Below, in pieces: positions 49,888 through 63,842 of a stretch of DNA of 64,000 nucleotides. Under the pieces are notes generated by a model. That model was given only the letters and a program-made list of their open reading frames with translations, did no database searches and was not told the origin of the DNA. Origin of the DNA: Pseudodesulfovibrio sediminis (GTDB lineage Bacteria; Desulfobacterota; Desulfovibrionia; Desulfovibrionales; Desulfovibrionaceae). Within the stretch, counting starts at the first letter, position 1. The number at the start of each line of letters is the position of its first letter. The stretch spans positions 1,931,001 through 1,995,000 of the forward strand of contig NZ_AP024485.1 in the NCBI RefSeq assembly GCF_020886695.1, given 5' to 3'. The translations under genes were made by a program, and so were the position numbers.

Positions 49888-51885
49888 TTAGGCGTCGGGG
49901 ATGATCTTAACGTAAGGCTTCTTGAAGACAGTAGTCACGCCAGTGGCGGGATCGTACTTGGAGTTACAGAAGCACTTCCATTTGGAGTCATCCAGGCCCA
50001 TGAAGTCGCCGCGGTAGTAGAAGCCCGGGTAACGGGATTCTTCGCGGAACTCGATGTGCTGCATGTGCAGACGGACGGTCCAGAGGCGGTGGAACTGTTC
50101 CCAGCAGCGCATCAGTTCGTGGAGGTCACGAGCTGCGAGCTTCTTGGAATCTTCTTCCATCATGCCGAGCAGCCAGAAACCGGTGTTCAGCAGAGCCTTG
50201 GAGGTCATGTACAGGGTAGCAACACCACCACCGTATTCATCGGTGCACTTAACGAGGCGCATCATGAAGTTGTGGGGAGTGATGTAAGCGGGGTTGACAA
50301 CAGGATCGGTGGAACCGCCCTTGTTCTCTTCGTATGTGTACCAGGGCTGGTAGATCTCTTTGGCGAGGTCAGCAGCGTTTTCTTTCAGGGAAGGCTTGAA
50401 GTCCTTGTGGTCAACAACCCAACGGACCATCTGCTTACCGACGATGCGGCCTTCAGCATGGGAACCGGAGGAGAACTTGTGACCGGAAGCGCCAACACCA
50501 TCAGCACAGGTCCAGAGGCCGTTGACGGTGGTCATACGGTTGTAGACCTTACCGTTGTCAGCTTTGACCTTGTAGGACTCGGGAACCCATTCTTCGTCGG
50601 GACCGGAACACCAGATGCCGCAGCAACCGGAGTGGGAACCGAGGAGGTAAGGCTCGGTGGGCATGATCTCGGAACCGCGGTCTTCAGGAGCGCAGTTGGT
50701 AGCAGCCCAGAGGTTGGCCTGGCCAACACACATGTCGAGGAAGTCTTCCCAAGCCTCAGACTCGAGGTGCTTCCATTCGGGACCGGACAGGTCGCCGCCG
50801 ACGGTGTTCAGCAGGGCAGTCTTGGTGTCCATGAAGATCGGGCCGCGGCCTTCACGCATTTCACGGAGCATCATGTGGTTACGCAGGCAGGTGGGGATAA
50901 CGTGACCCTTGGCGTAGCCGCGATCCTCGTAAGGCTTCAGCATAGCACGGTTGGTCTCGCAGTAATCTTCACCTTTGTAGTTGGTAGCTTTGGCCTTGAA
51001 GAGAAGGAACCATGCGCCGACCGGACCGTAACCGTCTTTGAAACGGGCGGGGACGAAGCGGTTTTCCATCATGGTCATTTCGCCGCCAACCTGGGCAACC
51101 ATGGTGTAGGTGGAACCAGCGTTCCATACCGGGTACCATGCACGACCCATACCCTCACCAGTGGAGCGGGGGCGGTAAACGTTAACAGCACCACCACAAG
51201 CGACAACAGCAGCGTTGCACTTGTACAGGTAAACTTTGTTCTCACGAGTGGAGAAACCAACAGCACCAGCGATGCGGTTGGGCTCGTTGGCGTCCAGCAG
51301 CATCTTAACGATGAACACACGCTCAACGTAGCGGTCTTCGCCAATGGCGTTCTTTGCAGCTTCAGCAACGATGCACTTGTAGGACTCACCGTTGATCATG
51401 ATCTGCCAACGACCGGAACGAACCGGAGCGTCGCCGTTACGGATGGCCAGGCCTTCAGCCTTAGCTTTGGCGCCGTCGAGGTTCTTGCCGTCTTTCTTGA
51501 CCCAAACGGGGAGACCCCATTCTTCGAAGAGGTGAACGGAATCATCAACGTGGCGGCCGAGGTCGAAGATCAAGTCTTCACGAACGATGCCCATGAGGTC
51601 AGTACGAACCATGCGGACGTAATCGTCAACATCGTTGTCACCGCAGTAGGTGTTAATGGCAGACAGGCCCTGTGCAACAGCACCACCACGTTCGATGGCA
51701 GCTTTGTCGACGAGCTCGAGGGTGATGGAAGGATCAACTTTCTCGATCCAACGCATAGCTTCAAAAGCTGCACCACAGTTACCCATGCCGCCGCCGACCA
51801 TCAGAATATCAACGTCTTTCTCGATGATTTCCGGCTCGGCGAGAGCAACACCTTTGGAAGCTTCTTTGCTGGGAAGCAGAGGCAT
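49888..51885 (-). CDS. aprA: Adenylylsulfate (APS) reductase alpha subunit
   Basis: 665 aa, standard AprA length. FAD-binding start VDILMVGGGMGNCGAAFEAMRWIEKVDPS; N-terminal MPLLPSKEASKGVALAEPE is close to Desulfovibrio AprA. Conserved catalytic-region stretches such as ENRFVPARFKDGYGPVGAWFLLFKAKATN and CGIWCSGPDEEW are present. With AprB it reduces APS to sulfite and AMP in the cytoplasm. It is strongly biased to codons such as GGT, CGT and GCT-type third bases relative to neighbours, in keeping with very high expression. Confidence 0.98.
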   Translation of the reverse strand: MPLLPSKEASKGVALAEPEIIEKDVDILMVGGGMGNCGAAFEAMRWIEKVDPSITLELVDKAAIERGGAVAQGLSAINTYCGDNDVDDYVRMVRTDLMGIVREDLIFDLGRHVDDSVHLFEEWGLPVWVKKDGKNLDGAKAKAEGLAIRNGDAPVRSGRWQIMINGESYKCIVAEAAKNAIGEDRYVERVFIVKMLLDANEPNRIAGAVGFSTRENKVYLYKCNAAVVACGGAVNVYRPRSTGEGMGRAWYPVWNAGSTYTMVAQVGGEMTMMENRFVPARFKDGYGPVGAWFLLFKAKATNYKGEDYCETNRAMLKPYEDRGYAKGHVIPTCLRNHMMLREMREGRGPIFMDTKTALLNTVGGDLSGPEWKHLESEAWEDFLDMCVGQANLWAATNCAPEDRGSEIMPTEPYLLGSHSGCCGIWCSGPDEEWVPESYKVKADNGKVYNRMTTVNGLWTCADGVGASGHKFSSGSHAEGRIVGKQMVRWVVDHKDFKPSLKENAADLAKEIYQPWYTYEENKGGSTDPVVNPAYITPHNFMMRLVKCTDEYGGGVATLYMTSKALLNTGFWLLGMMEEDSKKLAARDLHELMRCWEQFHRLWTVRLHMQHIEFREESRYPGFYYRGDFMGLDDSKWKCFCNSKYDPATGVTTVFKKPYVKIIPDA

Positions 51886-51948
51886 AATATTACTCCTAGT
51901 ATTTAACGTAATTCAAGTAGTCTAAAAGACAAACAACGCAAACCGGTA

Positions 51949-52449
51949 CTAGACCAGGCTGGCGTAATCTTCCATCTTCCACTCTTTCTTCAGGTCAGCT
52001 TCAGTAATAGAAGCCTCTTCCATAGCAGTTGCGATCGGGGCGACGAGCTCGGTCTCGGTGAACAGCAGTTCGTTGTCGAGATCGGTCGGCTCGGGCTTGC
52101 CTTCGAAAGGCTTGATGGAACCTTCAGGAGTGGTACGGATGGGGAACTTGAAGCGTTTCACGCTACCGTTACGGAATTTAATGGTCCACATGATGTCTTC
52201 AGCGGAACGCATCGGGATGGAAGTACCACCCATGGGTGCGAAGTCAGCATACGGACGAGCTTCGATTGCGCCCTGAGGGCAAATCTTTACGCAGGAGTAA
52301 CACTCCCAACATGCGGAAGGTTCCTGGTTGTATGCCTTCATTTCATCAGCATCCAGGATCATCAGATCGTTCGGGCAAATGTACATGCAGGCAGTCTTTT
52401 CTCCGCCTTTACAGCCGTCACATTTTTCCGGGTTAACAAAAGTCGGCAT
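51949..52449 (-). CDS. aprB: Adenylylsulfate (APS) reductase beta subunit
   Basis: 166 aa. N-terminal ferredoxin-like part with eight cysteines for two 4Fe-4S clusters (CDGCKGGEKTACMYICP and CWECYSCVKICPQGA), the AprB signature. The C-terminal tail wraps around AprA and ends in the MEDYASLV region. First gene of aprBA, 63 bases before aprA, with a strong TTAGGAGGAG ribosome site. Confidence 0.98.
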   Translation of the reverse strand: MPTFVNPEKCDGCKGGEKTACMYICPNDLMILDADEMKAYNQEPSACWECYSCVKICPQGAIEARPYADFAPMGGTSIPMRSAEDIMWTIKFRNGSVKRFKFPIRTTPEGSIKPFEGKPEPTDLDNELLFTETELVAPIATAMEEASITEADLKKEWKMEDYASLV

Positions 52450-53064
52450 AACTTCTCCTCCTAAATAGGGTTTTATTATTCACAAGAACCGACATCCTCT
52501 ACCTAAACAAAAATACGTCACCCCTTTTTCCGGGGCGGAAGTTGGGAATTAGCAAGAGGGAACATCCTTGTCAACGTGAAAGTGAATTTTTTAACAAGCG
52601 TATTCCATCCCACTTGGGTTGATTTTGAGCAAATAGGCGATAAACGTATGTCCGGCCTCAATTTACGCCCAAAACCCTCTATCCAGCGCAATGTGGACTT
52701 TCCCATAAAAACCACTCAAGTTTTTAGTGTAAATAAATGACCATTAGCAAGCCTTTTTTATGATCTTTACCCAATAATAACATTTTTTGTGTAAACGCTT
52801 GTATTATTTCAATAATTAAATGAAGTGCAGCCTATGTTTCTCTAGACTTTTTTACGAGATTTTCTATGACTCGAAACCGTCACTATTACAATACAAGAGT
52901 GTAACCACTCCGCCGGAAAAAACGCTTGACACGACTTTCACAAACGTACAATAAGGGCAGACCCTTTAATTGGGAAACAATCATGGACGTCGGGCGTAAA
53001 ATATTCGCACACCATGTATTAAGGCAATGGTTTCATTGACAAAAACTATTTTTAGGAGGCTTAA
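52450..53064. promoter_or_regulatory. Divergent control region between aprBA and sat
   Basis: No gene. For sat: TTGACA at 52926-52931, 15-base spacer and TACAAT at 52947-52952. Overlapping the -35 is TTGACA-N6-TCACAA (52926-52943), a Rex-type operator (consensus TTGTGA-N6-TCACAA) with two mismatches. For aprB on the minus strand, TTGACA lies at 52574-52569, and AAGTGA-N6-TAACAA (52580-52597) is a weaker Rex-like dyad. Otherwise AT-rich. Confidence 0.55.
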
Positions 53065-54348
53065 ATGTCCAACCTCGTAGCACCTCACGGTGGAAAAGGT
53101 CTCGTCTGCTGCCTGCTCGAAGGCGCAGAGCTCGAAGCTGAAGTTAAAAAAGCTGAAGGTCTGAAGACCCTCGAAATTTCTGACCGCGCCAAGGGCGATA
53201 TCATCATGATGGGTATCGGCGGCTTCTCTCCGCTGAGCGGCTTCATGACCCAGGCTGACTGGAAGGGCGTCTGCGCCGACTTCCTGATGGCCGACGGCAC
53301 CTTCTGGCCCATCCCCATCACTCTTGACACCAACGACGAAGATGTCGCTGTTGGTGACGAAGTCGCTCTGAAAGCCGCTGATGGTACCGTTTACGCTACC
53401 ATGGCCGTCGAAGAAAAGTACGAGATGACTGAAGCCGACAAGAAGTGGGAATGCGAACAGGTCTACAAAGGCGAAGGCGAAGAGTCCGCTGACGATGTCT
53501 TCTGGAAGATCGCCATGGAAGATCATCCGGGCGTCCAGATGGTTATGGCTCAGGGCAAGTACAACCTGGCCGGCCCCGTCAAAGTCCTCTCCGAGGGCGA
53601 CTACGCTGCTCGTTTCCCCGGTGTCTACCTGACCCCCGCCCAGATCCGTGCCGAGATGGAAAAACGTGGCTGGTCCAACGTTGCCGCTCTGCAGCTGCGT
53701 AACCCCATGCACCGCTCCCACGAATTCCTGGCCAAGATCGCTGTTGAAGTTTGCGACGGCGTCGTCATTCACTCCCTGATCGGTAACCTGAAGCCGGGCG
53801 ACATCCCGGGTGACGTCCGCATCGAGTGCATCCAGATCCTCATCGACAACTACTTCGTTCCCGAGAACGTCATCAACGCCGGTTACCCCCTGGACATGCG
53901 TTATGCTGGTCCCCGTGAAGGTCTCATCCACGCTACCTTCCGTCAGAACTACGGCATCAACAACATGCTCATCGGTCGTGACCACGCTGGCGTCGGCGAC
54001 TTCTACGGTCTGTTCGAAGCTCAGGACATCTTCAAGAAGATCCCTTACCAGGATGGTTGCACCGCCGAGCCCGGAAAGGCCCTGCTCTGCAAGAACATGA
54101 ACATCGACTGGACCTTCTACTGCTACAAGTGCGACGGCATGGCTTCCATGCGTACGTGCCCCCATACCAAGGAAGACCGCGTCATCCTGTCCGGTACCAA
54201 GCTGCGTAAGGCCCTTTCCGAAGGCGCCGAAGTCGTCGACCACTTTGGTCGTGACGAAGTCCTCGTGCGTCTGCGCGAGTACTACGCATCCCTGACCGAA
54301 AAGGTCGAGGTCAAGATGCAGAAAGCTGCTTCCGGCGCAGACATGTAG
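53065..54348 (+). CDS. sat: Sulfate adenylyltransferase (ATP sulfurylase)
   Basis: 427 aa, homodimeric/trimeric SRB-type enzyme. The ATP site motif [11 protein letters not shown] and the second motif [12 protein letters not shown] are intact, and the C-terminal zinc site is visible in [15 protein letters not shown]. It activates sulfate with ATP to APS plus pyrophosphate, the first cytoplasmic step of sulfate reduction. AGGAGG lies before the ATG. Codon usage (GCT, CGT, GGT, GTT) marks a highly expressed gene. It is divergent from aprBA-qmoABC. Confidence 0.98.
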
Positions 54349-54380
54349 TTCTGTCCGGTCGCTCTTTAGCTGACCATTCC

Positions 54381-54412
54381 AAGGGGGCCGACCGATGTAG
54401 GCCCCCTTTTTC
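54381..54412 (+). terminator. Intrinsic terminator after sat
   Basis: AAGGGGGCC (54381-54389) pairs with GGCCCCCTT (54400-54408), followed by TTTT. Confidence 0.92.
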
Positions 54413-54455
54413 ATGCCCAATCTCAATTGTTTCATCCGACAAGAATCCGCAAGCC

Positions 54456-55118
54456 ATGTTTATAATCTATGGAATCCGGAGCAAAGAGCACCCGGTTCAG
54501 TATACCCACAACGTCTACTGCGACAACTGCGGCCATACAAACCACACGGCTCAGGCCTTCACAAAATACGCACATCTTTTCTGGATCCCCTTTTTCATCA
54601 CCTCCCGCCCCATCCTGCTGACCTGCGACAACTGCGATCACATCATGGACAAGCGAGAGCTTTCCAAAGAGGACAAGAAGCGCGTCAATCAAGCCTTTTT
54701 CACCCCATTGAACACACTGCCCTTCTTTTTAGGGGTGGGATTGCTCCTGCTCGCTGCCTTTCTTTATCACCTCGACAATCAGGAGATACGGCAAAAAGAA
54801 CTGGCAATGCTTGATCAGCCCCAGGTTAATGACATTTATATTGCTGATTATTCTAAGCTTTTTAACGGGATCGACTTTGAAGGATACAACTTTGGCGCGT
54901 TAAAAATCACATCACTCCAAGAGGACGGGATTTCATTCGCAGTCTCCATAACGTCATACAGAAGCGATTACGGCGTGGAACGAAAACTTCGGGAGGGATT
55001 TCCCGATCCAGACTCTTTCGTAGACGATGAAATCCTCATCCCCTATGACGACGTCAGAAAACTCTACAATTCCGGCACGTTCTCTGGCATCCACAGGGAA
55101 AAAGCCGATAATCCCTAG
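54456..55118 (+). CDS. Zinc-ribbon membrane protein, unknown
   Basis: 220 aa. An N-terminal zinc ribbon has two CxxC pairs (YCDNCGH and TCDNCDH) about 36 residues apart, then one membrane helix (TLPFFLGVGLLLLAAFLYHL) and an extracytoplasmic part of about 100 residues with VNDIYIADYSKLFNG and YDDVRKLYNSGTF. The N-terminal part resembles zinc-ribbon domains linked to membrane sensors. There is no partner gene, and function is unknown. Confidence 0.72.
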   Translation: MFIIYGIRSKEHPVQYTHNVYCDNCGHTNHTAQAFTKYAHLFWIPFFITSRPILLTCDNCDHIMDKRELSKEDKKRVNQAFFTPLNTLPFFLGVGLLLLAAFLYHLDNQEIRQKELAMLDQPQVNDIYIADYSKLFNGIDFEGYNFGALKITSLQEDGISFAVSITSYRSDYGVERKLREGFPDPDSFVDDEILIPYDDVRKLYNSGTFSGIHREKADNP

Positions 55119-55200
55119 TCGCTCGGAGCATATCCTTCACTCCGCGCCGCCGACAGGCGGCTTCAAAACCTGACCTACAACGCCTTGGAATTACGCTTAA

Positions 55201-55225
55201 AAAAAAGCCTCCCGAAGGAGGCCTT
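55201..55225 (-). terminator. Intrinsic terminator of the glycine-zipper gene
   Basis: On the minus strand AAGGCCTCC-TTCG-GGAGGC is followed by a run of eight T. Confidence 0.88.
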
Positions 55226-55247
55226 GTGTGTTGGTATTTGGTTTGTG

Positions 55248-55685
55248 CTACTGCTTGAGGTGCCAGACTCCCTGGTCGTCGCGCCAGGCCTTGGCCATGA
55301 TCTCCTGACCCTCTTCGCTCTTGATGGTCACGTCGCGGTAAATCTTGTTCTCCGAGACATAAGGCGGAGTGGGAGTCGCTGTGTATGAGCGCCCCGTGTC
55401 TGGGTTGGTCCACTGCGCAGGCTCGTTGGAACGTCCCTGCTCCAGAGTCTGTTGGACCTTTTGCTCGTCAGCCTTGTCCCATTCGTTACCGACAATGTAG
55501 CCCATAAGCGTACCGACACCTGCGCCGACCGCAGCGCCGAGCAACTTGTCGTTAAAGGTCAGCGCGCCGATGGTGGCACCGGCCAGGCCGCCGACAGCGG
55601 CTCCTTGTTGCGCCCTGTTGTTGGCGCAGCCGTATGCAACCATCATGAAACAAATCAACAGCAGGGGAATCAGTATTTTTCGCAT
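55248..55685 (-). CDS. Glycine-zipper 2TM lipoprotein (paralogue)
   Basis: 145 aa. Lipobox in MVAYGC, glycine zippers VGGLAGATIGALTF and AAVGAGVGTLMGYIVGNE, then WTNPDTGRSYTATP and a C terminus ending VWHLKQ. It mirrors the protein at 23174-23629 in domain order, zipper sequence and spacing, so the two are paralogues. Probably outer-membrane-associated. GGAGG precedes the ATG. Confidence 0.83.
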   Translation of the reverse strand: MRKILIPLLLICFMMVAYGCANNRAQQGAAVGGLAGATIGALTFNDKLLGAAVGAGVGTLMGYIVGNEWDKADEQKVQQTLEQGRSNEPAQWTNPDTGRSYTATPTPPYVSENKIYRDVTIKSEEGQEIMAKAWRDDQGVWHLKQ

Positions 55686-55924
55686 GGTTTTCCTCCATGG
55701 TTTCTCGAGGAGTGAAACACGAACACGTCACTGTTGCCCATCCCTTTGCCTCCTCAGCAAACCGGAATTGGCTGCCCCCAATATACCCCAATCCTTCGGT
55801 CTTGTCCTCCCTGATACGCAAACGCATCGTCTCCTTTGTAAAATTCAAGAAAATCTTGAGCTTCCAAAAAAACACACGCAAACATCTTGCCTCCACCACT
55901 GATTTCATGCAGGGATGTTGATCT

Positions 55925-56758
55925 ATGAACGAAAGATCCCGGGCAATGATTCTCATGGCTGTCACGGCACTCATCTGGAGTTCCGGAGGCCTAGCCATCA
56001 AGCTGGTGGACATAAATCCCATGGCCATCACGGGGTTCCGGAGCATGCTGGCGGCCCTGACGCTGGGCGTTCTCTTCCGCCGCCGACTCCACTTCTGTTT
56101 TTCGCCCATCCAATGGGGTGCGGCCATGGGATATGCCGGGTTGCTCATTACCAATGTGGTCGCCACCAAGCTGACGACCTCGGCCAATGCCATTTTGCTG
56201 GCCTATACCGCGCCGGTCTATGTGGCCATGCTTGCGCCGTGGTTGCTCAAGGAAAAGACGCGGCGCAGCGATTGGGTGTTCATCAGCGTGACCGTGGGTG
56301 GCATGACCCTCTTTTTTCTCGACAAACTCTCACCCTCCGGCCTGTGGGGCAACATCATCGCCATTGGCACAGGCTTTTCCTATGCCATATTCACCCTGTG
56401 CATGCGGGCGCAGAAGGACGCTTCGCCCGTGGAATCGGTCATCATGGGCCATGTAATCACGGCTCTGTGCGGCCTGCCGTTCATGTTCGATGCCATGCCC
56501 GATTTCGAAAGCTGGACCGGGCTGATCTATCTCGGCATCTTTCAACAGGGCATCTCCCTGGCGCTGTATACCTGGGCGATCAAACGACTTGGCGCGCTGG
56601 AAGCCATCCTCATCATGATGCTGGAGCCGATCTTCAATCCCCTCTTCGTGGCCATCGGCTACGGCGAACTGCCCGGCCTGTGGGCCGTGATCGGCGGACT
56701 CGTCGTCATGGGTGCAGTCACGCTACGCGGAGCCATGGGCGCATTGCGAAAAGCGTGA
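55925..56758 (+). CDS. DMT-superfamily (EamA) transporter
   Basis: 277 aa with ten hydrophobic helices in two EamA repeats. The pattern VTALIWSSGGLAIKLV, TTSANAILLAYTAPVYVAML and the second-half ILIMMLEPIFNPLFVAIGYGE is typical of amino-acid or metabolite exporters of this group. Substrate unknown. No regulator or enzyme gene is adjacent. Confidence 0.9.
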   Translation: MNERSRAMILMAVTALIWSSGGLAIKLVDINPMAITGFRSMLAALTLGVLFRRRLHFCFSPIQWGAAMGYAGLLITNVVATKLTTSANAILLAYTAPVYVAMLAPWLLKEKTRRSDWVFISVTVGGMTLFFLDKLSPSGLWGNIIAIGTGFSYAIFTLCMRAQKDASPVESVIMGHVITALCGLPFMFDAMPDFESWTGLIYLGIFQQGISLALYTWAIKRLGALEAILIMMLEPIFNPLFVAIGYGELPGLWAVIGGLVVMGAVTLRGAMGALRKA

Positions 56759-56794
56759 TGGGAAGCCGCCTTTCGGCGGATTTGATCAGGTGAT

Positions 56795-57065
56795 TTCGCC
56801 CCCGGCGGCCAAAGGACATGTCCTTTGGAATCCTTTTTTTTCCTTCGGAGCGGTATAATAACAATATTCTTCCCGCCTTCCTTACAGCGATTCAAAGTTT
56901 CAACCCTCTCTTTTTTTAACCAACAAAAAAACACACGCCCGCCCCCACATCGCCGAAGGCCCAACAAAAAGTTTAGGAAAAGGAGGGGATGGGGGTCTGG
57001 GGGAAGGGGAGGAAAAAGCCCTTTTCAAAGGGTTTTTCCTCCCCTTCCCCCAGCCGCCGGAGGCC
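56795..57065. repeat. Palindromic intergenic element upstream of the EPSP-synthase-like gene
   Basis: Contains GCCCCCGGCGGCC-AAAGGACATGTCCTTT near 56798-56825 and a long GC/AG-rich stem (56997-57021 with 57030-57053, one bulge) ending in GCCGCCGGAGGCC. The GCCGCCGGAGGC block recurs near 13.86 and 42.93 kb. Nothing else was seen in 56759-57166. Confidence 0.6.
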
Positions 57066-57166
57066 ACCCCCACACTACTGCTTGCATATCGCGGAATTTC
57101 GCGCTAGGAAGGCCAATCCCTTTTTTGAAGGGAAACCATATCATTTATAAGGAAGACGGAAAGACA

Positions 57167-59092
57167 ATGATCAAGATCCGCAAAGACGACGACAGGCGTG
57201 GTGCCTCCAATGGCCAGCGCAAAGACGACACACGTAGCGATTCCCGTTACGATGACAAGCGTAGCACTCCCCGCTACAATGACAACCGAGGCGACTCCCG
57301 CAGGGACAACAGCCGCGGTGACTCCCGAACCAACTCCCGCAATGACGATCGGCCGAGCAGACCTCGCCGAGACGAAAGCCGTGGCCCGCGCAAATTCGAA
57401 AAGCGCGAAGGCCCTCGTGGCGCTGGTCCTCGTGGCGGCAGACGCCCTGGCGGCCGGGACTTCTTCGGCAACAAGCCCGAGCGCGCTCCCATCAGCGATG
57501 AAGATTACGTGGCCAAGGCTGACGTGGTCGCCGGACACCGCTTCACTGATATTTCCGACATCGACAACCAGGTGCTGAATCTGCTGGAAAAGCGTGCGTT
57601 TCTCATCCGCAAGGAAGGCGCATGGCGCAAATCCAGACAAAAATCCCTGGTCGATCCCAAACTGGAGAAACTGCTCCGAGGGTCTTTTGACGCCAAGGCG
57701 AGCGAGCTCGGCCTGGATGCCAAGCTGACCAAATCGCTGTTCACCCTGCTCAACCAGTTCTCCCTGGCTGATGTCCGCAAAAAATTCGAAGGCGACGGCT
57801 ACAAGCTCGCCCCGCGTGTCGAGCCGCTTTCAGCCAGCATCTCCGGCCCACGCTCCTTCCGCTACACACGCATGATGCTGGCCATGGCTGCCAGCGCAGG
57901 CGCTCCGGCCAAGCTGGCCCCGGTGACCATGAACGCGCCCAACAAGGATCTGGCCAAGGCTCTCAAGCAGGCCAAGTCCCCCATCCACTGGGATGACGAC
58001 TACATCAAAAACGAAGGCGGCCGGACCCTCCATTTCGAAGGCAACATGATTTTTGTCGGCGAAGACCCGTTCAACTTCTACATGCTGCTCTGTTTTGCAC
58101 TCGGCCACGCCGGTCGCTGCAAATTCACCGGCAAACCCGCCCTCCAGCTCATGGACATCGCCAGCCTCAACAGAGTACTGCCCCGTCTGGGTGCTCGGAT
58201 GGTGCCCATCAATCCGAACAACCCCGGCCTGCCCGCCCGTCTCGAATGCGGAGGCGCCATGGACGAAGCCGTGACCCTGCCCGGCGGCACTGATCCCGAT
58301 TTCGCGGCGGCCCTGACCCTGGCTGCCTGGTCTTTCCCCGGCGGCCTGACCATCAACGGTCTGACCAAGGAAGCCCGTGTCCGTGTGGCCGAGGCCGTTG
58401 AAGTGCTCAACGACTGCGGCATCACTGCGGAGCTGAAAAAGGATTCCGTCACCATTTCCGACGGTATTCCCACCATCGAGCCCACTCCGACATTGCCGTT
58501 GTCAGTGAAATTCAATAGCCTGCTCATGGCCCTGCCGATCATGTCCGGCGGCAGCCTGAACATCCAGGGGTCCTGGCCCAGGAACGAGACCACTGACCGG
58601 ATCGTTCAGGAGCTGACCAACCTTGGTCTCAGGATTGACATAGCCACCGAAAATATTGTCGTATCCAAAGAGGGCGACGTACCTGAAAACGGCACCATCA
58701 CCCTTGGCGAAATTCCCGATCTCCAGCCCCTGGCCCTGGCCCTGGGACTCCGATTGGGCAACGCCACATTAACCGGCACATTTGACGGGACCATCACCGA
58801 ATTGCTTGACCGCATGAGCGCGCTGTACGAAGAAACCGAGGACGGTCTCGTACTCAAGCCCGGCACCAAGCGTTGGGACGGCACGTGGTACAGCCCGGAC
58901 CCGATCTGGTCCATGGGATGTGCCCTTTCCGCCTATGTCGTTCCCGGCATCCTGCTGGAGAACCACGGCGAAGTGACCGCCACATGGCCCGAATTCTGGA
59001 ACTTCTACAACTCCCTGCCCACCGGCAAGATGAAACCCAAACCGGTACGCGAGAAGAAAGATGACACAAGAAAACGCATCAAAATCAGATAA
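57167..59092 (+). CDS. Chorismate-mutase-like / EPSP-synthase-like fusion with Arg/Asp/Ser-rich N terminus
   Basis: 641 aa. Residues 1-105 are low complexity, rich in R, D, S, N and G with RGDSR and RGG-like repeats, probably disordered. Residues about 125-205 read like an AroQ chorismate mutase (DIDNQVLNLLEKRAFLIRKE, then VDPKLEKLL and GLDAKLTKSLFTLLNQFS). Residues about 215-625 follow the EPSP synthase (AroA) fold: SISGPRSFRYTRMMLAMAASAG, KFTGKPALQLMDIASL, SVKFNSLLMALPIMSGG and NETTDRI. By-eye comparison with E. coli AroA shows most substrate residues changed: the GSKS block is GPRS, NAGTA and RPM are not recognisable, and SSQ is TDP. It may be a degenerate or altered enzyme. ATG at 57167 is chosen over the longer repeat-encoded frame; AAGGAAG lies upstream. 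The next gene overlaps its end by 32 bases. Confidence 0.7.
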   Translation: MIKIRKDDDRRGASNGQRKDDTRSDSRYDDKRSTPRYNDNRGDSRRDNSRGDSRTNSRNDDRPSRPRRDESRGPRKFEKREGPRGAGPRGGRRPGGRDFFGNKPERAPISDEDYVAKADVVAGHRFTDISDIDNQVLNLLEKRAFLIRKEGAWRKSRQKSLVDPKLEKLLRGSFDAKASELGLDAKLTKSLFTLLNQFSLADVRKKFEGDGYKLAPRVEPLSASISGPRSFRYTRMMLAMAASAGAPAKLAPVTMNAPNKDLAKALKQAKSPIHWDDDYIKNEGGRTLHFEGNMIFVGEDPFNFYMLLCFALGHAGRCKFTGKPALQLMDIASLNRVLPRLGARMVPINPNNPGLPARLECGGAMDEAVTLPGGTDPDFAAALTLAAWSFPGGLTINGLTKEARVRVAEAVEVLNDCGITAELKKDSVTISDGIPTIEPTPTLPLSVKFNSLLMALPIMSGGSLNIQGSWPRNETTDRIVQELTNLGLRIDIATENIVVSKEGDVPENGTITLGEIPDLQPLALALGLRLGNATLTGTFDGTITELLDRMSALYEETEDGLVLKPGTKRWDGTWYSPDPIWSMGCALSAYVVPGILLENHGEVTATWPEFWNFYNSLPTGKMKPKPVREKKDDTRKRIKIR

Positions 59093-59363
59093 ACGACTCA
59101 GCGACGACATCCCGACCCTGGAGGCCGAGGTGGTCACGCTGACCAAGGAACTCGAAGACACCGTGGTGGCCATACGCACGTTCATGGAAGCCGAAGACCC
59201 GAGAAACGGCATTTACCACCACGAGGAAATATTCCGATTGCAGCAGGATAAACTGCGACTGGATGTGGAGATCAAATTCCGCACCAACAAGATCAACCGG
59301 ATCAATCTCGGCATTGACGAGACAGGACCCTCGGAAGGCGTGAAAAACGGCTTCCTGTTCTGA
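59061..59363 (+). CDS. Small coiled-coil protein, unknown
   Basis: 100 aa, starts 32 bases inside the preceding gene in another frame, preceded by AGAAGAAAG, so translational coupling is likely. It is helical (TLEAEVVTLTKELEDTVVAI and QQDKLRLDVEIKFRTNKINRI) with a short conserved-looking end FLF. No domain recognised. Its coupling suggests a partner role for the EPSP-synthase-like protein. Confidence 0.65.
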   Translation: MTQENASKSDKRLSDDIPTLEAEVVTLTKELEDTVVAIRTFMEAEDPRNGIYHHEEIFRLQQDKLRLDVEIKFRTNKINRINLGIDETGPSEGVKNGFLF

Positions 59364-59570
59364 TCGGTTGTACAGGGAACGTCTATGATTGCGGATGGAA
59401 ACGGCTGTTTTCATCCGCATCGTCTACCCCCTCCCTGCCACGTTGGGATAGAGTGAGATAATAAGGATAGTACCGCATCTGACCGTGAACGGACCGGAAA
59501 TGAGAGCCCCGGAGACACCCCGCACGCAGGTGATTTGAGAGAGACCCTTTTGACTTGAACAGGAGAAAGC

Positions 59571-61493
59571 ATGGGCAAGAGCATCACCCACAAGATCATT
59601 GAGAAGCACCTTGTTTCCGGCGAGATGGTCGCCGGACAGGAAGTCGGTCTGCGCATCGACCAGACACTGACCCAGGACGCCACCGGCACCATGGCATGGC
59701 TGCAGTTCGAAGCCATCGGCATCGGCGAAGTCCGCACGGACCTGTCTGTCAGCTACGTGGACCACAACACCCTGCAGATGGGATTCCGCAACCCTGACGA
59801 CCATCGCTATCTCCGCACCGTCGCCGCCAAATCCGGCGCAGTCTTTTCCCCGGCCGGCACCGGCATCTGCCACCAGCTGCACCTTGAGAACTTTGCCAAG
59901 CCCGGCGCGACCCTCATCGGCTCCGACTCCCACACCCCCACCGCAGGCGGCATCGGCTCCATGGCCATGGGCGCAGGTGGCCTGTCCGTGGCACTGGCCA
60001 TGGCCGGTGAAGCGTATTTCATCCCCATGCCCAAAGTCGTCAAGGTCGAGCTGACCGGCGAGCTGACCGGCTGGGCCGCAGGCAAGGACGTCATCCTTGA
60101 GCTGCTCCGTCGCCTGACCGTCAAGGGCGGGGTGGGCAAGGTCTTTGAATACGCCGGTCCCGGCGTAGCCGCACTGTCCGTGCCAGACCGCGCCACCATC
60201 ACCAACATGGGTGCCGAGCTGGGTGCCACCACCTCCATCTTCCCGTCTGACGACAAGACTAAATTCTTCCTGGAGAAAATGGGCCGTGGCGAAGACTTTG
60301 TCGAACTGATCGCCGATGCCGACGCCGAATACGACGAAGTCATCGAGATCAACCTGTCCGAGCTGGAACCGCTGGTCGCCCAGCCCCACATGCCCGACCA
60401 GGTGTGCAAGGTCAAAGAACTGGCCGGCAAAAAGATCGACCAGTGTGCCATCGGCTCCTGCACCAACTCATCCTATTCCGACCTCAAGAACACCGCGCAG
60501 ATTCTGAGCGGCAAAATGACACCGGCAGAGACCGATCTGATGATCTCCCCCGGCTCCAAGCAGGTCATGAAGATGCTCGCCCGCGAAGGCCTCATCGAAC
60601 CGCTGCTGGATGCAGGCGCCCGTCTGCTGGAATGTTCCTGCGGCCCGTGCATCGGCATGGGTGGCTCCCCGGTTTCCGCCGGTGTGTCCGTCCGCACCTT
60701 CAACCGCAACTTCGAAGGCCGCTCCGGCACACAGGACGGTCAGGTCTATCTGGCCAGCGCCCAGACCGCTGCACGCCTCGCGCTTGACGGCGAGTTCACC
60801 GATCCCGCCACCTGGGGTCCGGCTCCCGAGCGCGTGGAACTGCCCGAAGATGTCCCGTCCATCCGCGACCTGTTCGTCTTCCCTCCGGCCGACAAGAGCG
60901 CTGTCGAGATCCTGCGCGGCCCCAACATCGTGGCCCTGGAAGACTTCGACAAACTGTCCGACACCGTGGAAGCCAAGGTGCTGCTCAAGGTGGAAGATAA
61001 CATCACCACCGACCACATCCTGCCTGCCGGTGCCGAAATTACCGCCCTGCGGTCCAATATTCCGGCCATCAGCCAGTATATCTTCAGCCGTGTGGACGAA
61101 GGCTTTGTCGGTCGCATGAAAGAACACGGCACCGGCGTCATTCTGGGCGGCGACAACTACGGCCAGGGTTCCAGCCGCGAACACGCAGCACTCGGCCCCC
61201 GTCATCTCGGCGTCAAGGCCGTCATCGTCAAGTCCCTGGCCCGCATTCACCGCGCCAATCTGGTCAACTTCGGCATCCTGCCCCTGTTGCTGGTAGACCC
61301 CGCCGACTACGACGCGTTGTCCGAAGGTGATGATCTGATCATCCCGGCCAACGCCATGACCCCCGGCGGCACCATTGACATCACGACCGGCTCAGGCAAG
61401 AGTGTCACTGTCACAAATGATTTGACCAAAAAGGAACTGGAGATTATCCAGTCAGGTGGCCTCCTCAACGCTGTGCGTGAAGGTCAGGCATAA
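59571..61493 (+). CDS. Aconitate hydratase (single-chain, 640-residue type)
   Basis: 640 aa. The 4Fe-4S ligands lie in IGSCTNSS and ECSCGPCIGMGG, and substrate-site motifs GSDSHTPTAGGIG and YGQGSSREHAAL are clear. The domain order is that of the bacterial AcnA/mitochondrial family but shorter than the usual 750-900 residues, a class found in anaerobes and deltaproteobacteria. It interconverts citrate and isocitrate. The ATG follows AGGAGA. A hairpin and 66 bases separate it from ppiD. Confidence 0.95.
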   Translation: MGKSITHKIIEKHLVSGEMVAGQEVGLRIDQTLTQDATGTMAWLQFEAIGIGEVRTDLSVSYVDHNTLQMGFRNPDDHRYLRTVAAKSGAVFSPAGTGICHQLHLENFAKPGATLIGSDSHTPTAGGIGSMAMGAGGLSVALAMAGEAYFIPMPKVVKVELTGELTGWAAGKDVILELLRRLTVKGGVGKVFEYAGPGVAALSVPDRATITNMGAELGATTSIFPSDDKTKFFLEKMGRGEDFVELIADADAEYDEVIEINLSELEPLVAQPHMPDQVCKVKELAGKKIDQCAIGSCTNSSYSDLKNTAQILSGKMTPAETDLMISPGSKQVMKMLAREGLIEPLLDAGARLLECSCGPCIGMGGSPVSAGVSVRTFNRNFEGRSGTQDGQVYLASAQTAARLALDGEFTDPATWGPAPERVELPEDVPSIRDLFVFPPADKSAVEILRGPNIVALEDFDKLSDTVEAKVLLKVEDNITTDHILPAGAEITALRSNIPAISQYIFSRVDEGFVGRMKEHGTGVILGGDNYGQGSSREHAALGPRHLGVKAVIVKSLARIHRANLVNFGILPLLLVDPADYDALSEGDDLIIPANAMTPGGTIDITTGSGKSVTVTNDLTKKELEIIQSGGLLNAVREGQA

Positions 61494-61508
61494 CCTTGGA
61501 ATAAATTC

Positions 61509-61531
61509 CGCGCCCTCGCATGAGGGCGCGG
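61509..61531. other. Hairpin between aconitase and ppiD
   Basis: CGCGCCCTC-GCAT-GAGGGCGCG, nine-bp stem, no T tract. Confidence 0.55.
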
Positions 61532-61559
61532 ATTGAATTACAGAGCTATTGGAGCGCAA

Positions 61560-63458
61560 ATGTTAGAAATCATGCGTGAGAACGCATCGGGTTGGATCGT
61601 CAAGATCCTGTTCGCCGTCATCATCGTTGTCTTTGTTTTTGCCTTTGGTATGTCCGGGCTGACCAATTCCGGGGATCCGGTCATGGCCTCCGTGGACGGC
61701 AAGACCATCACACGGGCCGAATTTCAGTTGGCCTACAACCGCGCCACCGAGATCGTCAGGCAGTCCAACCCGCAGGTCACCCAGGCCCAGCTCAGGAGCA
61801 CCCAGTTCAAACAGCTCGTCATGAGCAACCTGATGGACGAAATTCTCCTGCTCAATGAAGCTGATAAACTCGGCGTCTCCGCTTCAGACGATGAAGTTGT
61901 CGCCGGTATTTCCGCCCAATCCATGTTCAAGAATGCCGATGGCAAGTTTGATCCCAACATCTATCAGGGCAGACTGCGCCAGCTCCGCATGACACCGGCT
62001 GAGTATGAAGCGGACTTCAAGAAGGAACTGATGATGGACAAGGTCAGGCAGCTCGCGGTTCGCCCCGCAGAGGTGACCGAGGCTCAGGCCCGCCATCTCT
62101 TCAACTGGCTCGGCGAACAGGTGCGCATGGACTTCATCGAAGTGGCTCCCAATGACTTTATTGACACGGTGACTGTCAGCGAAGACGAAATCAAGACGTT
62201 CTTCGATGCCAACACCGAACGCTTCACGGCCCCCGCGCAGGTCACGCTCCGTTACCTCACGTTCACCCCCGAAGCCCTGGCCAAAAACGAAACGGTCACG
62301 GATGAGGAGATCGCCAGCTACTACGAAGCCAACAAGGCTTCCATGGAGCAGAAGGAGCAGGTCCGCGCCCGTCACATCCTGGTCATGTCCAAGGACAGCG
62401 ACCCCGAAGAAGTGCAGGCCGCCGCTGCCAAGAAGATTGAAAAAGTATTGAAAAAGGCCCAGGCCGGTGAAGATTTCGCCGCTCTGGCCAAGGAATATTC
62501 CGAAGGCCCCTCCGGCCCCAACGGTGGCGAGCTTGGATGGTTCGCTCGCGGCGCCATGGTGCCCGACTTCGAGGCCGTCGCCTTTGCCACCAAGAAAGGC
62601 GAAATATCCGGTCTGGTCAAAACCCGTTTCGGCTGGCACATCATCAAGGTCGAAGACCACAAGGATGCCAAGCTCAGGACACTGGACGAGGCCAAAGACG
62701 AGATCAGGCAGGAGATCGCTCAGGAAAAGGCGGCCGAACAGGTCACTGAACTGCTGGATCAGTCCATGGATCGCCTCGTTTCCGGCATGAGCATCAGTGA
62801 CATCGCCACCGAGTTGAAGCTGACCGTAGAGACCAGCGAGCCCATGCCCGCGGCCTTCCTGGGCCAGATTCTCGGCATCGCTCCCGAAGTCGTCACAGTG
62901 CTGGAAGAACTGCCCGCAGGCACGGCGCAGCAGACCCCCGTGGCCATCAACGGCGGCTACATTCTCGCAGAGAAGGTCGAGGACATTGCTCCGGCCCTCA
63001 TCGAGCTGGACAAGGCCAAGCCGACCATCATCAAGATTCTCAAGGAACAGAAAGCAACCGAAAAGGCCAAGGCCAAGGCTGAGTCGATCCTCGCCGCCCT
63101 GACCGGTTCTGACGCAGCCAAAGTTGCCAAGACATATGCGGCCCGCATCATGACTTCCGAGTCCTTTGATCGCCAGGGCAACATCCCGGCGCTCGGCGCA
63201 AGTCAGGAACTGACAACCGCCCTGTTCAACGCCAAGGATGACGCATGGCTGCCCACGGTATACGCCCTGTCCTCCGGCATGGTCGTGGCTCGCCTGAACG
63301 AGCGCATCCCGGCCTCTGACGCCACATGGGCAGAACAGAAGGCTACCTGGATGGAACAGGTCAGCCGTGGATATAGCCAGGAAATGCTGGCAGCCTACAT
63401 GGAAGAGCTGAACAAGAACGCCACCAAAGAGATCGCGCGTCCCGACCTGCTCCAGTAA
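61560..63458 (+). CDS. ppiD: PpiD-like peptidyl-prolyl isomerase with SurA N-terminal domain
   Basis: 632 aa. One N-terminal membrane helix ([16 protein letters not shown]) anchors it, followed by a SurA_N region ([18 protein letters not shown]), a parvulin rotamase domain ([45 protein letters not shown] at about 265-360) and a long helical C-terminal region. PpiD is an inner-membrane periplasmic folding chaperone near the Sec translocon. The ATG at 61560 follows TTGGAGCG; the TTG at 61533 is rejected. Confidence 0.93.
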
Positions 63459-63474
63459 GTCACAGACACACCAC

Positions 63475-63505
63475 AAGGCCCGCTCGGTACTACCGAGCGG
63501 GCCTT
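63475..63505. terminator. Bidirectional terminator
   Basis: AAGGCCCGCTCGGTA pairs with its complement across a one-base centre, a nearly perfect palindrome between ppiD and the convergent rsgA remnant. Confidence 0.85.
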
Positions 63506-63569
63506 GTTCATTTCTGCAGTATCAGTGAAATGCCATTGGTTAGAGGCTTCCACTCACTCCATGGAGGTA

Positions 63570-63842
63570 TCACCTCTTCTTCCTGTATTTCTTTATTTCC
63601 CTTGCAAACAGGGCAACATCCCTCCAGCGTTCCTTTTCCACTCTATCCGCACTTTTATGTTGTCTCTCCGAGAGGTACGCCAGCTCCCGTTTCATCTTGT
63701 GATAGCTTTCAAGGCGATCCTGCGAAAGCTCGCCACCGGCAACAGCCTCCAGGACACGGCAGCCGCACTCCTGCGTATGCGTGCAGTCGGAGAAGCGGCA
63801 TTCCCGGGCAAGCATTTCAATTTCTGCCAAGGCGGAACCAGA
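63570..63842 (-). pseudogene. rsgA: rsgA 3' remnant (ribosome-associated GTPase, C-terminal zinc region)
   Basis: The frame encodes LAEIEMLARECRFSDCTHTQECGCRVLEAV and ELSQDRLESYHKMKREL, the C-terminal zinc-finger region of RsgA/YjeQ (CRFxDCxH...C). The GTPase and OB-fold parts, some 250 residues, are absent: the frame is closed by TGA just upstream. An AAGGAG site with ATG at 63912 opens 16 codons (MSIRSLEIV...) ending at 63862 and is out of phase with the remnant by one base. This fits an internal deletion with frameshift, or an end fragment left by recombination. A short intact protein of this region is less likely. Confidence 0.6.

Follow-up and report, generated by a model that had tools for sequence, protein, structure and literature searches.

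A chorismate mutase-like and EPSP synthase-like fusion protein of Desulfovibrionales with altered catalytic sites

The closest described arrangements are found in the organization of aromatic-pathway genes. In one study (PMC1173090), where EPSP synthase (EPSPS) is named AroF, the gene order in D. vulgaris is given as aroQ-pheA > EPSPS > tyrA. The same study describes TyrA-EPSPS fusions in gamma-proteobacteria, as well as a fused EPSPS domain that is disrupted in Pseudomonas syringae. The 64,000-nucleotide stretch of Pseudodesulfovibrio sediminis DNA analysed here (the window) carries a gene in which an AroQ-type chorismate mutase-like domain precedes an EPSPS-like domain in one chain. The literature that we found, mainly open-access papers, describes canonical genes but not this fusion. 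On balance, the product appears to be a relative of AroA of ancient origin, preceded by an AroQ-like domain, whose catalytic sites were lost and which persisted in a role other than catalysis.

The fused gene and its parts

The fused open reading frame lies on the forward strand from an ATG at 57167 to 59092 and encodes 641 residues beginning with M-I-K-I-R-K. The same six residues open the frame in 29 of 36 same-genus rows, and a purine-rich sequence (AGGAAG/GGAAAG) stands just 5′ of this ATG. On these two grounds the ATG was preferred to a TTG at 56825, which represents a mechanical extension of the frame. The assignment of the gene rests on Pfam, a family profile, a structure model and orthologues. 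An Rfam scan of positions 54300-63600 returned no match.

The AroQ-type helix bundle occupies residues 117-200 (57515..57766). Pfam CM_2 matches residues 128-195 with 29.5 bits (cut-off 27), and the model, built as a monomer, places helices at 117-156, 164-181 and 185-200. The EPSPS-like domain follows at about residues 210-619 (57794..59023). The match of the single sequence to the Pfam EPSP_synthase family is weak (22.9 bits, cut-off 22.8), but the family profile matches PDB 3nvs with an E-value of 8e-26, and the model of the fused chain aligns to 2bjb over 394 residues (Z 35.5, rmsd 3.0), indicating a complete EPSPS fold. The initial annotation, which had read an AroQ-like segment and an AroA-like fold in a single chain from the sequence alone, is therefore upheld on both domains and on their fusion. 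TIGR01356 matches all 21 members of our family profile (profile A2), versus one of 21 for the murA model, so that by profile the EPSPS part lies far nearer to AroA than to MurA. The window protein itself scores 40.1-40.7 bits against TIGR01356, below the equivalog cut-off of 287.25.

Ahead of the bundle is an Arg/Asp/Gly/Ser-rich arm, predicted to be disordered (residues 1-105, 57167..57481). Its first 104 residues contain 25% R, 18% D+E, 12% G and 16% S+N, and residues 1-96 have pLDDT below 50, in agreement with the R/D/S/G-rich start noticed originally. Among the same-genus rows that start with MIKIRK, the arm varies from 8 to 162 residues (rows L020, L059 and L063 were unmatched in these measurements), with 19-33% arginine in all but the two shortest. 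Further rows of the same genus lack it, as do many other genera. Arms rich in R, G, D, E or K are found again in further genera (L172, L189, L196, L209 and L197). Since its length varies and many members lack it, the arm is unlikely to be the essential part. By eye, the arms of L024 and L009 contain numerous short repeats that are almost identical, units with RKFDRRDGE among them, which suggests rapid expansion and contraction.

The chain ends in a basic tail, RKRIKIR (residues 635-641, 59069..59089). In 54 of 57 diverse orthologues the motif [RK]R[RK]?[IV] falls within the final 45 residues, and the remaining three are also basic-ended. It is preceded by a linker that varies in both length and sequence. 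The tail overlaps the start of a small downstream gene, but it is unlikely to be a by-product of that overlap, because all seven loci of the diverse set without a detected small gene carry the motif. In the locus comparison described below, two loci lack the small gene: L046 has the motif, and L053 has a looser basic tail.

Changes in the two sites

Site residues were compared in an alignment of E. coli EPSPS, 46 canonical AroA proteins (30 of the order and 16 of the phylum) and 57 distinct fused cores, hand-picked so that each genus contributed about one core and the window's genus several. EPSPS residues are given in E. coli numbering, checked against the E. coli sequence. All 46 canonical proteins are identical to E. 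coli at 18 site positions. None of the 57 fused proteins keeps K22, R27, R100, R124, Q171, Y200, K340 or H385. S197 and R344 are each kept in one, S23 and K411 each in two, T97 in three, R386 in four, S170 in five, D313 in six (including the window protein) and S169 in seven; E341, with nine, is the best retained of the 18, although the K340-R344 region is gapped and poorly aligned. Nine of these positions are basic in every AroA, and the number of K, R or H left at them is zero in 32 fused proteins, one in 21 and two in four. In an earlier count over 82 fused rows, some of which represent one genome in two collections, three other positions that do not vary in AroA are often retained: S21 in 57 rows, D242 in 43 and D384 in 48. 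The count over 57 cores is preferred.

The initial impression that most EPSPS residues are changed was thus correct. Neither of the outcomes named as contradicting the initial annotation, a model without an AroA fold or full conservation with no second aroA, was seen. The protein has the fold of EPSP synthase while lacking the 18-position S3P/PEP site and falling short of the TIGR01356 cut-off. Judged from these residues, it almost certainly has no EPSPS activity.

The AroQ-like bundle is changed in a different manner. We take the chorismate mutase active-site set to be R11, R28, K39, R51, E52 and Q88. The equivalents of R28 and E52 (R143 and E167 of the fused protein) are found in all 57 cores. 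Position 39 is K or R in 53, D48 is kept in 45, position 53 is K or R in 53 and position 81 is N or Q in 56. On the other hand, position 11 is Arg in just seven; position 51 is L in 22 and Q in 13, with Arg outside its six commonest residues; and position 88 is unconserved, Gln likewise falling outside the six commonest. The CM_2 match and the three-helix bundle are therefore accompanied by an incomplete active-site set. The computation shows a chorismate mutase site partly lost, not wholly erased. A new ligand or an odd activity in this altered site is possible, but the residue pattern suggests that chorismate mutase activity itself is very probably absent.

This polar cluster keeps open the main rival to a non-catalytic scaffold, namely that the protein is a ligand sensor, in which the altered pocket would bind another small acid and switch the EPSPS-like clamp or a partner. 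The invariance of R28 and E52 and the frequent retention of the other polar positions fit a sensor, and the loss of R11, R51 and Q88 fits a pocket with a changed ligand. However, R28 and E52 could be structural, and in some genera, as in L173 and L188, helices one and two are separated by a shorter stretch. Moreover, one genome that carries the fused gene, G231, has no detectable chorismate synthase, so the protein there is unlikely to use chorismate made by the cell. We consider a sensor unlikely, though less so than the other alternatives.

Neighbouring genes, distribution and the aromatic pathway

The small gene (59061..59363, forward strand) encodes 100 residues and overlaps the end of the fused gene by 32 bases in two frames (59061..59092), as stated in the initial annotation. 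The model of its product has two helices, 5-44 and 54-83, with a block mean pLDDT that exceeds 90 between residues 21 and 80; the product is predicted to be an antiparallel helical hairpin belonging to a conserved family. Comparison with Pfam, PHROGs and PDB yielded no matches other than weak or coiled-coil ones. The locus comparison comprised 63 rows, of which five are second copies of the same place, leaving 58 distinct loci. In 56 of them (all but L046 and L053) the fused gene has a small-gene homologue at its end, and in the window's genus the overlap is mostly 31 to 34 bases.

Such an arrangement would agree with an obligate complex of the two products. However, the small gene is kept in all 21 genomes that lack the fused gene and was not detected in 13 of 39 fused-bearing genomes hand-picked for this test. 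In several of the former, including those of the genera g120 and g135, it lies between sat and acn, and the fused gene is gone from that place. The original description of the small gene as coupled thus holds for the overlap in the window, but not for the evolution of the two genes, which part from each other. This separate inheritance weakens the reading of the small protein as an obligate partner and makes such a complex improbable. The loci without the fused gene (L160-L171) come from g105, g108, g118, g120 and g135, and only some have the small gene between sat and acn; in others the frame directly before it is presumably aldehyde-dehydrogenase-like.

Downstream of the small gene are a frame that we take to be aconitase-like (acn, 59571..61493, forward strand), of which 52 of the 58 distinct loci have a homologue close to the fused gene, and a SurA/PpiD-like peptidyl-prolyl isomerase gene (61533..63458, forward strand; Pfam SurA_N_3 and Rotamase). 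A few kb upstream of the fused gene, the forward-strand frame at 53065..54348, seen in the locus comparison, is presumably the sulfate adenylyltransferase gene sat, and we likewise take the frames at 49888-54348 to be those of APS reductase and sat. A sat or aprB homologue flanks the fused gene in 20 of 34 wide loci, and in a 1.4-Mb genome (L173) the gene of the APS-reductase beta subunit lies beside it. The ancestral order may have been sat - fused gene - small gene - acn - SurA-like gene; a third conserved partner was sought in the flanks, and none was found beyond acn, the SurA-like gene and sat/apr. This synteny could suggest a sulfate-reduction gene. In G231, however, the fused gene sits between genes of a PfkB-type kinase and a phosphomethylpyrimidine kinase, and from the context of that locus we tentatively set the idea aside.

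The order was searched with profile A2 in 219 genomes, each at least 90% complete, and 198 of these gave a strong match (E < 1e-30). Seven genomes without a match and 14 with matches at E-values of 1e-6 to 1e-13, taken as ordinary AroA, were counted as lacking the gene; these 21 genomes belong to the five genera listed above, all in the window's family. Genomes as small as 1.4-1.7 Mb are among those that carry it. The 21 named loci come from Pseudodesulfovibrio, Salidesulfovibrio, Desulfovibrio, Desulfonatronospira, Desulfonatronovibrio, Desulfonauticus, one Desulfohalobiaceae and one Desulfovibrionaceae; they were collected with two peptide patterns, which distant members elsewhere could escape, and L090 is a partial match. 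Two of the named genera were checked and both are Desulfovibrionales. In a sample of 118 genomes of the phylum, four of them from the window's family including its own, 61 genomes beyond the family gave matches, and none of the listed matches spans both the chorismate mutase-like and the EPSPS-like parts.

In a tree built by a quick method from 27 fused EPSPS domains, 18 AroA proteins of the order, 13 other AroA proteins of the phylum and two MurA-like proteins, the fused domains form one clade (SH-aLRT 100) with a stem of 2.65 changes per column. The tree does not settle the sister of this clade, and it cannot place the clade between AroA and MurA because the outgroup consists of the two MurA-like rows. 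In the 12 closest fused-gene pairs dN/dS is 0.05-0.21, indicating purifying selection. By sequence and model the protein thus fits the description of a pseudoenzyme, a fold under purifying selection whose catalytic residues are lost.

A conserved protein of this kind could also be an enzyme with a new reaction in either fold. Five residues of the fused protein (R143, E167, R344, P356 and E360, in its own numbering) are invariant in all 57 members, and two EPSPS columns show partial new preferences: R100 is replaced by Tyr in 36 of 57 and Q171 by D or E in 38 of 57. However, in none of the 18 site columns is a replacement residue conserved beyond about two thirds of the 57, and we regard a new enzyme as quite improbable.

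A canonical aroA is present elsewhere in the same genome (3507937-3509250, TIGR01356 363.8 bits), which answers the question, raised at the outset, of a second complete copy. It lies directly 3′ of a gene with CM_2 and PDT domains (chorismate mutase/prephenate dehydratase) and is followed by a frame that we take to be tyrA-like. The fused gene is away from this aro cluster. The genome has two more EPSP-family genes, L001 and L003 (G000:C1:1009076-1010275 and 2453057-2454286); both look to us like MurA, and the frame after L003 is presumably murB-like. In a table of 35 genomes, two near-full-length MurA-like matches were seen in the window's genome only, and G049 has extra partial ones.

AroA scores above the cut-off in 33 of 35 genomes (all but G050 and G051) and in 22 of 26 further ones (all but G231, G269, G339 and G184). 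In G269 and G339, both of genus g117, no AroA is above the cut-off though chorismate synthase was found, and assembly gaps are possible. The genome of G231 is 1.7 Mb in four contigs and 99% complete. The TIGR01356 search of it gave MurA-like and fused matches only, with no AroA above the cut-off. Chorismate synthase was not detected there, versus eight of nine genomes searched, nor was PDT, versus seven of nine. Its fused protein is uninterrupted, with 574 residues ending in VNRRRIITE.

These genomes bear on the idea that the protein regulates the aromatic pathway or serves as one of its inactive subunits, perhaps in partnership with the true AroA or the product of pheA. Its origin from pathway folds and the canonical AroA of most genomes searched would agree with such a role. 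However, G231 keeps the fused gene without a detectable AroA, chorismate synthase or PDT, and in the window's genome the gene is not near the aro cluster. Furthermore, AroA was sought in ten of the 21 genomes that lack the fused gene and was found in nine (all but G184), so the pathway operates in the absence of the fused protein. A role of this kind is accordingly highly improbable. The simplest readings are out altogether: a pseudogene, by the dN/dS values and by frames free of stops in every orthologue row; the ordinary aroA of this organism, by the canonical copy and the lost site; and chance similarity, by the agreement of fold, profile and orthologues.

A possible role and comparison with known systems

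We return to the reading of an ancient AroA-related protein kept after the loss of its catalytic sites. The fused gene may have originated as a copy of adjoining pheA and aroA genes that then lost its prephenate-dehydratase part by deletion; such a copy would have exactly the domain order of the fused protein. By analogy with chorismate mutases, the AroQ-like bundle may pair two chains. Pairing would bring two dead EPSPS clamps together with the flexible basic ends, and the assembly could serve as a scaffold. The near-invariant basic tail might contact a polyanion, RNA being our first guess, or an acidic partner protein, and the Arg-rich arm, in the many genera that have it, might make the same contact. 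The initial annotation had put forward, as candidate readings, a shifted activity and an RNA- or protein-binding scaffold acting through an RGG-like tail. A non-catalytic role is likely. A scaffold with polyanion contact is a tentative proposal, held with less than even confidence. It is still more speculative, and in our opinion unlikely, that the protein is a core cellular double pseudoenzyme, a dimer whose Arg-rich arms organise an RNA- or nucleoid-associated assembly and which is kept without aromatic biosynthesis. Several observations speak against the preferred reading: R28 and E52 are kept, as mostly are K/R39 and D48, some columns have new residues, S21, D242 and D384 are retained in many rows, the window protein keeps D313, the arm is often absent, and 21 of 219 genomes do without the gene.

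Since the gene passes the Pfam cut-offs of both families, automatic annotation may label it as EPSP synthase or chorismate mutase, with misleading pathway models as a result. If our reading is true, both enzyme domains of this fusion have been redirected to a different use, which is unusual, and the genome with no detected end of the pathway would be a natural experiment in which the later function is separated from the original one. The protein would also offer a testable handle on a process in sulfate-reducing bacteria.

The fused protein resembles several known systems in part. With EPSP synthase (AroA, TIGR01356) it shares the complete fold, and its profile is much closer to that family than to MurA, but it lacks the substrate and catalytic positions and has an additional AroQ-like domain and tails. 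With AroQ-type chorismate mutases (PF01817) it shares the three-helix topology, R28 and E52, and mostly K/R39 and D48; in contrast to them, R11, R51 and Q88 are unconserved and the bundle is joined to an EPSPS-like domain. Fungal AROM and EPSPS-cytidylate kinase fusions also have a fused EPSPS domain, and AROM chains and NF008816 are among the profile matches of the family. The EPSPS domains of those fusions are active, unlike the domain as we read it here. The TyrA-EPSPS fusions, with the Pseudomonas syringae case (PMC1173090), are similar in that EPSPS is joined to another aromatic-pathway domain and the catalysis of one domain has been discarded. Here, however, the partner is AroQ, the fusion is order-wide, and most genomes searched carry a canonical aroA as a separate gene.
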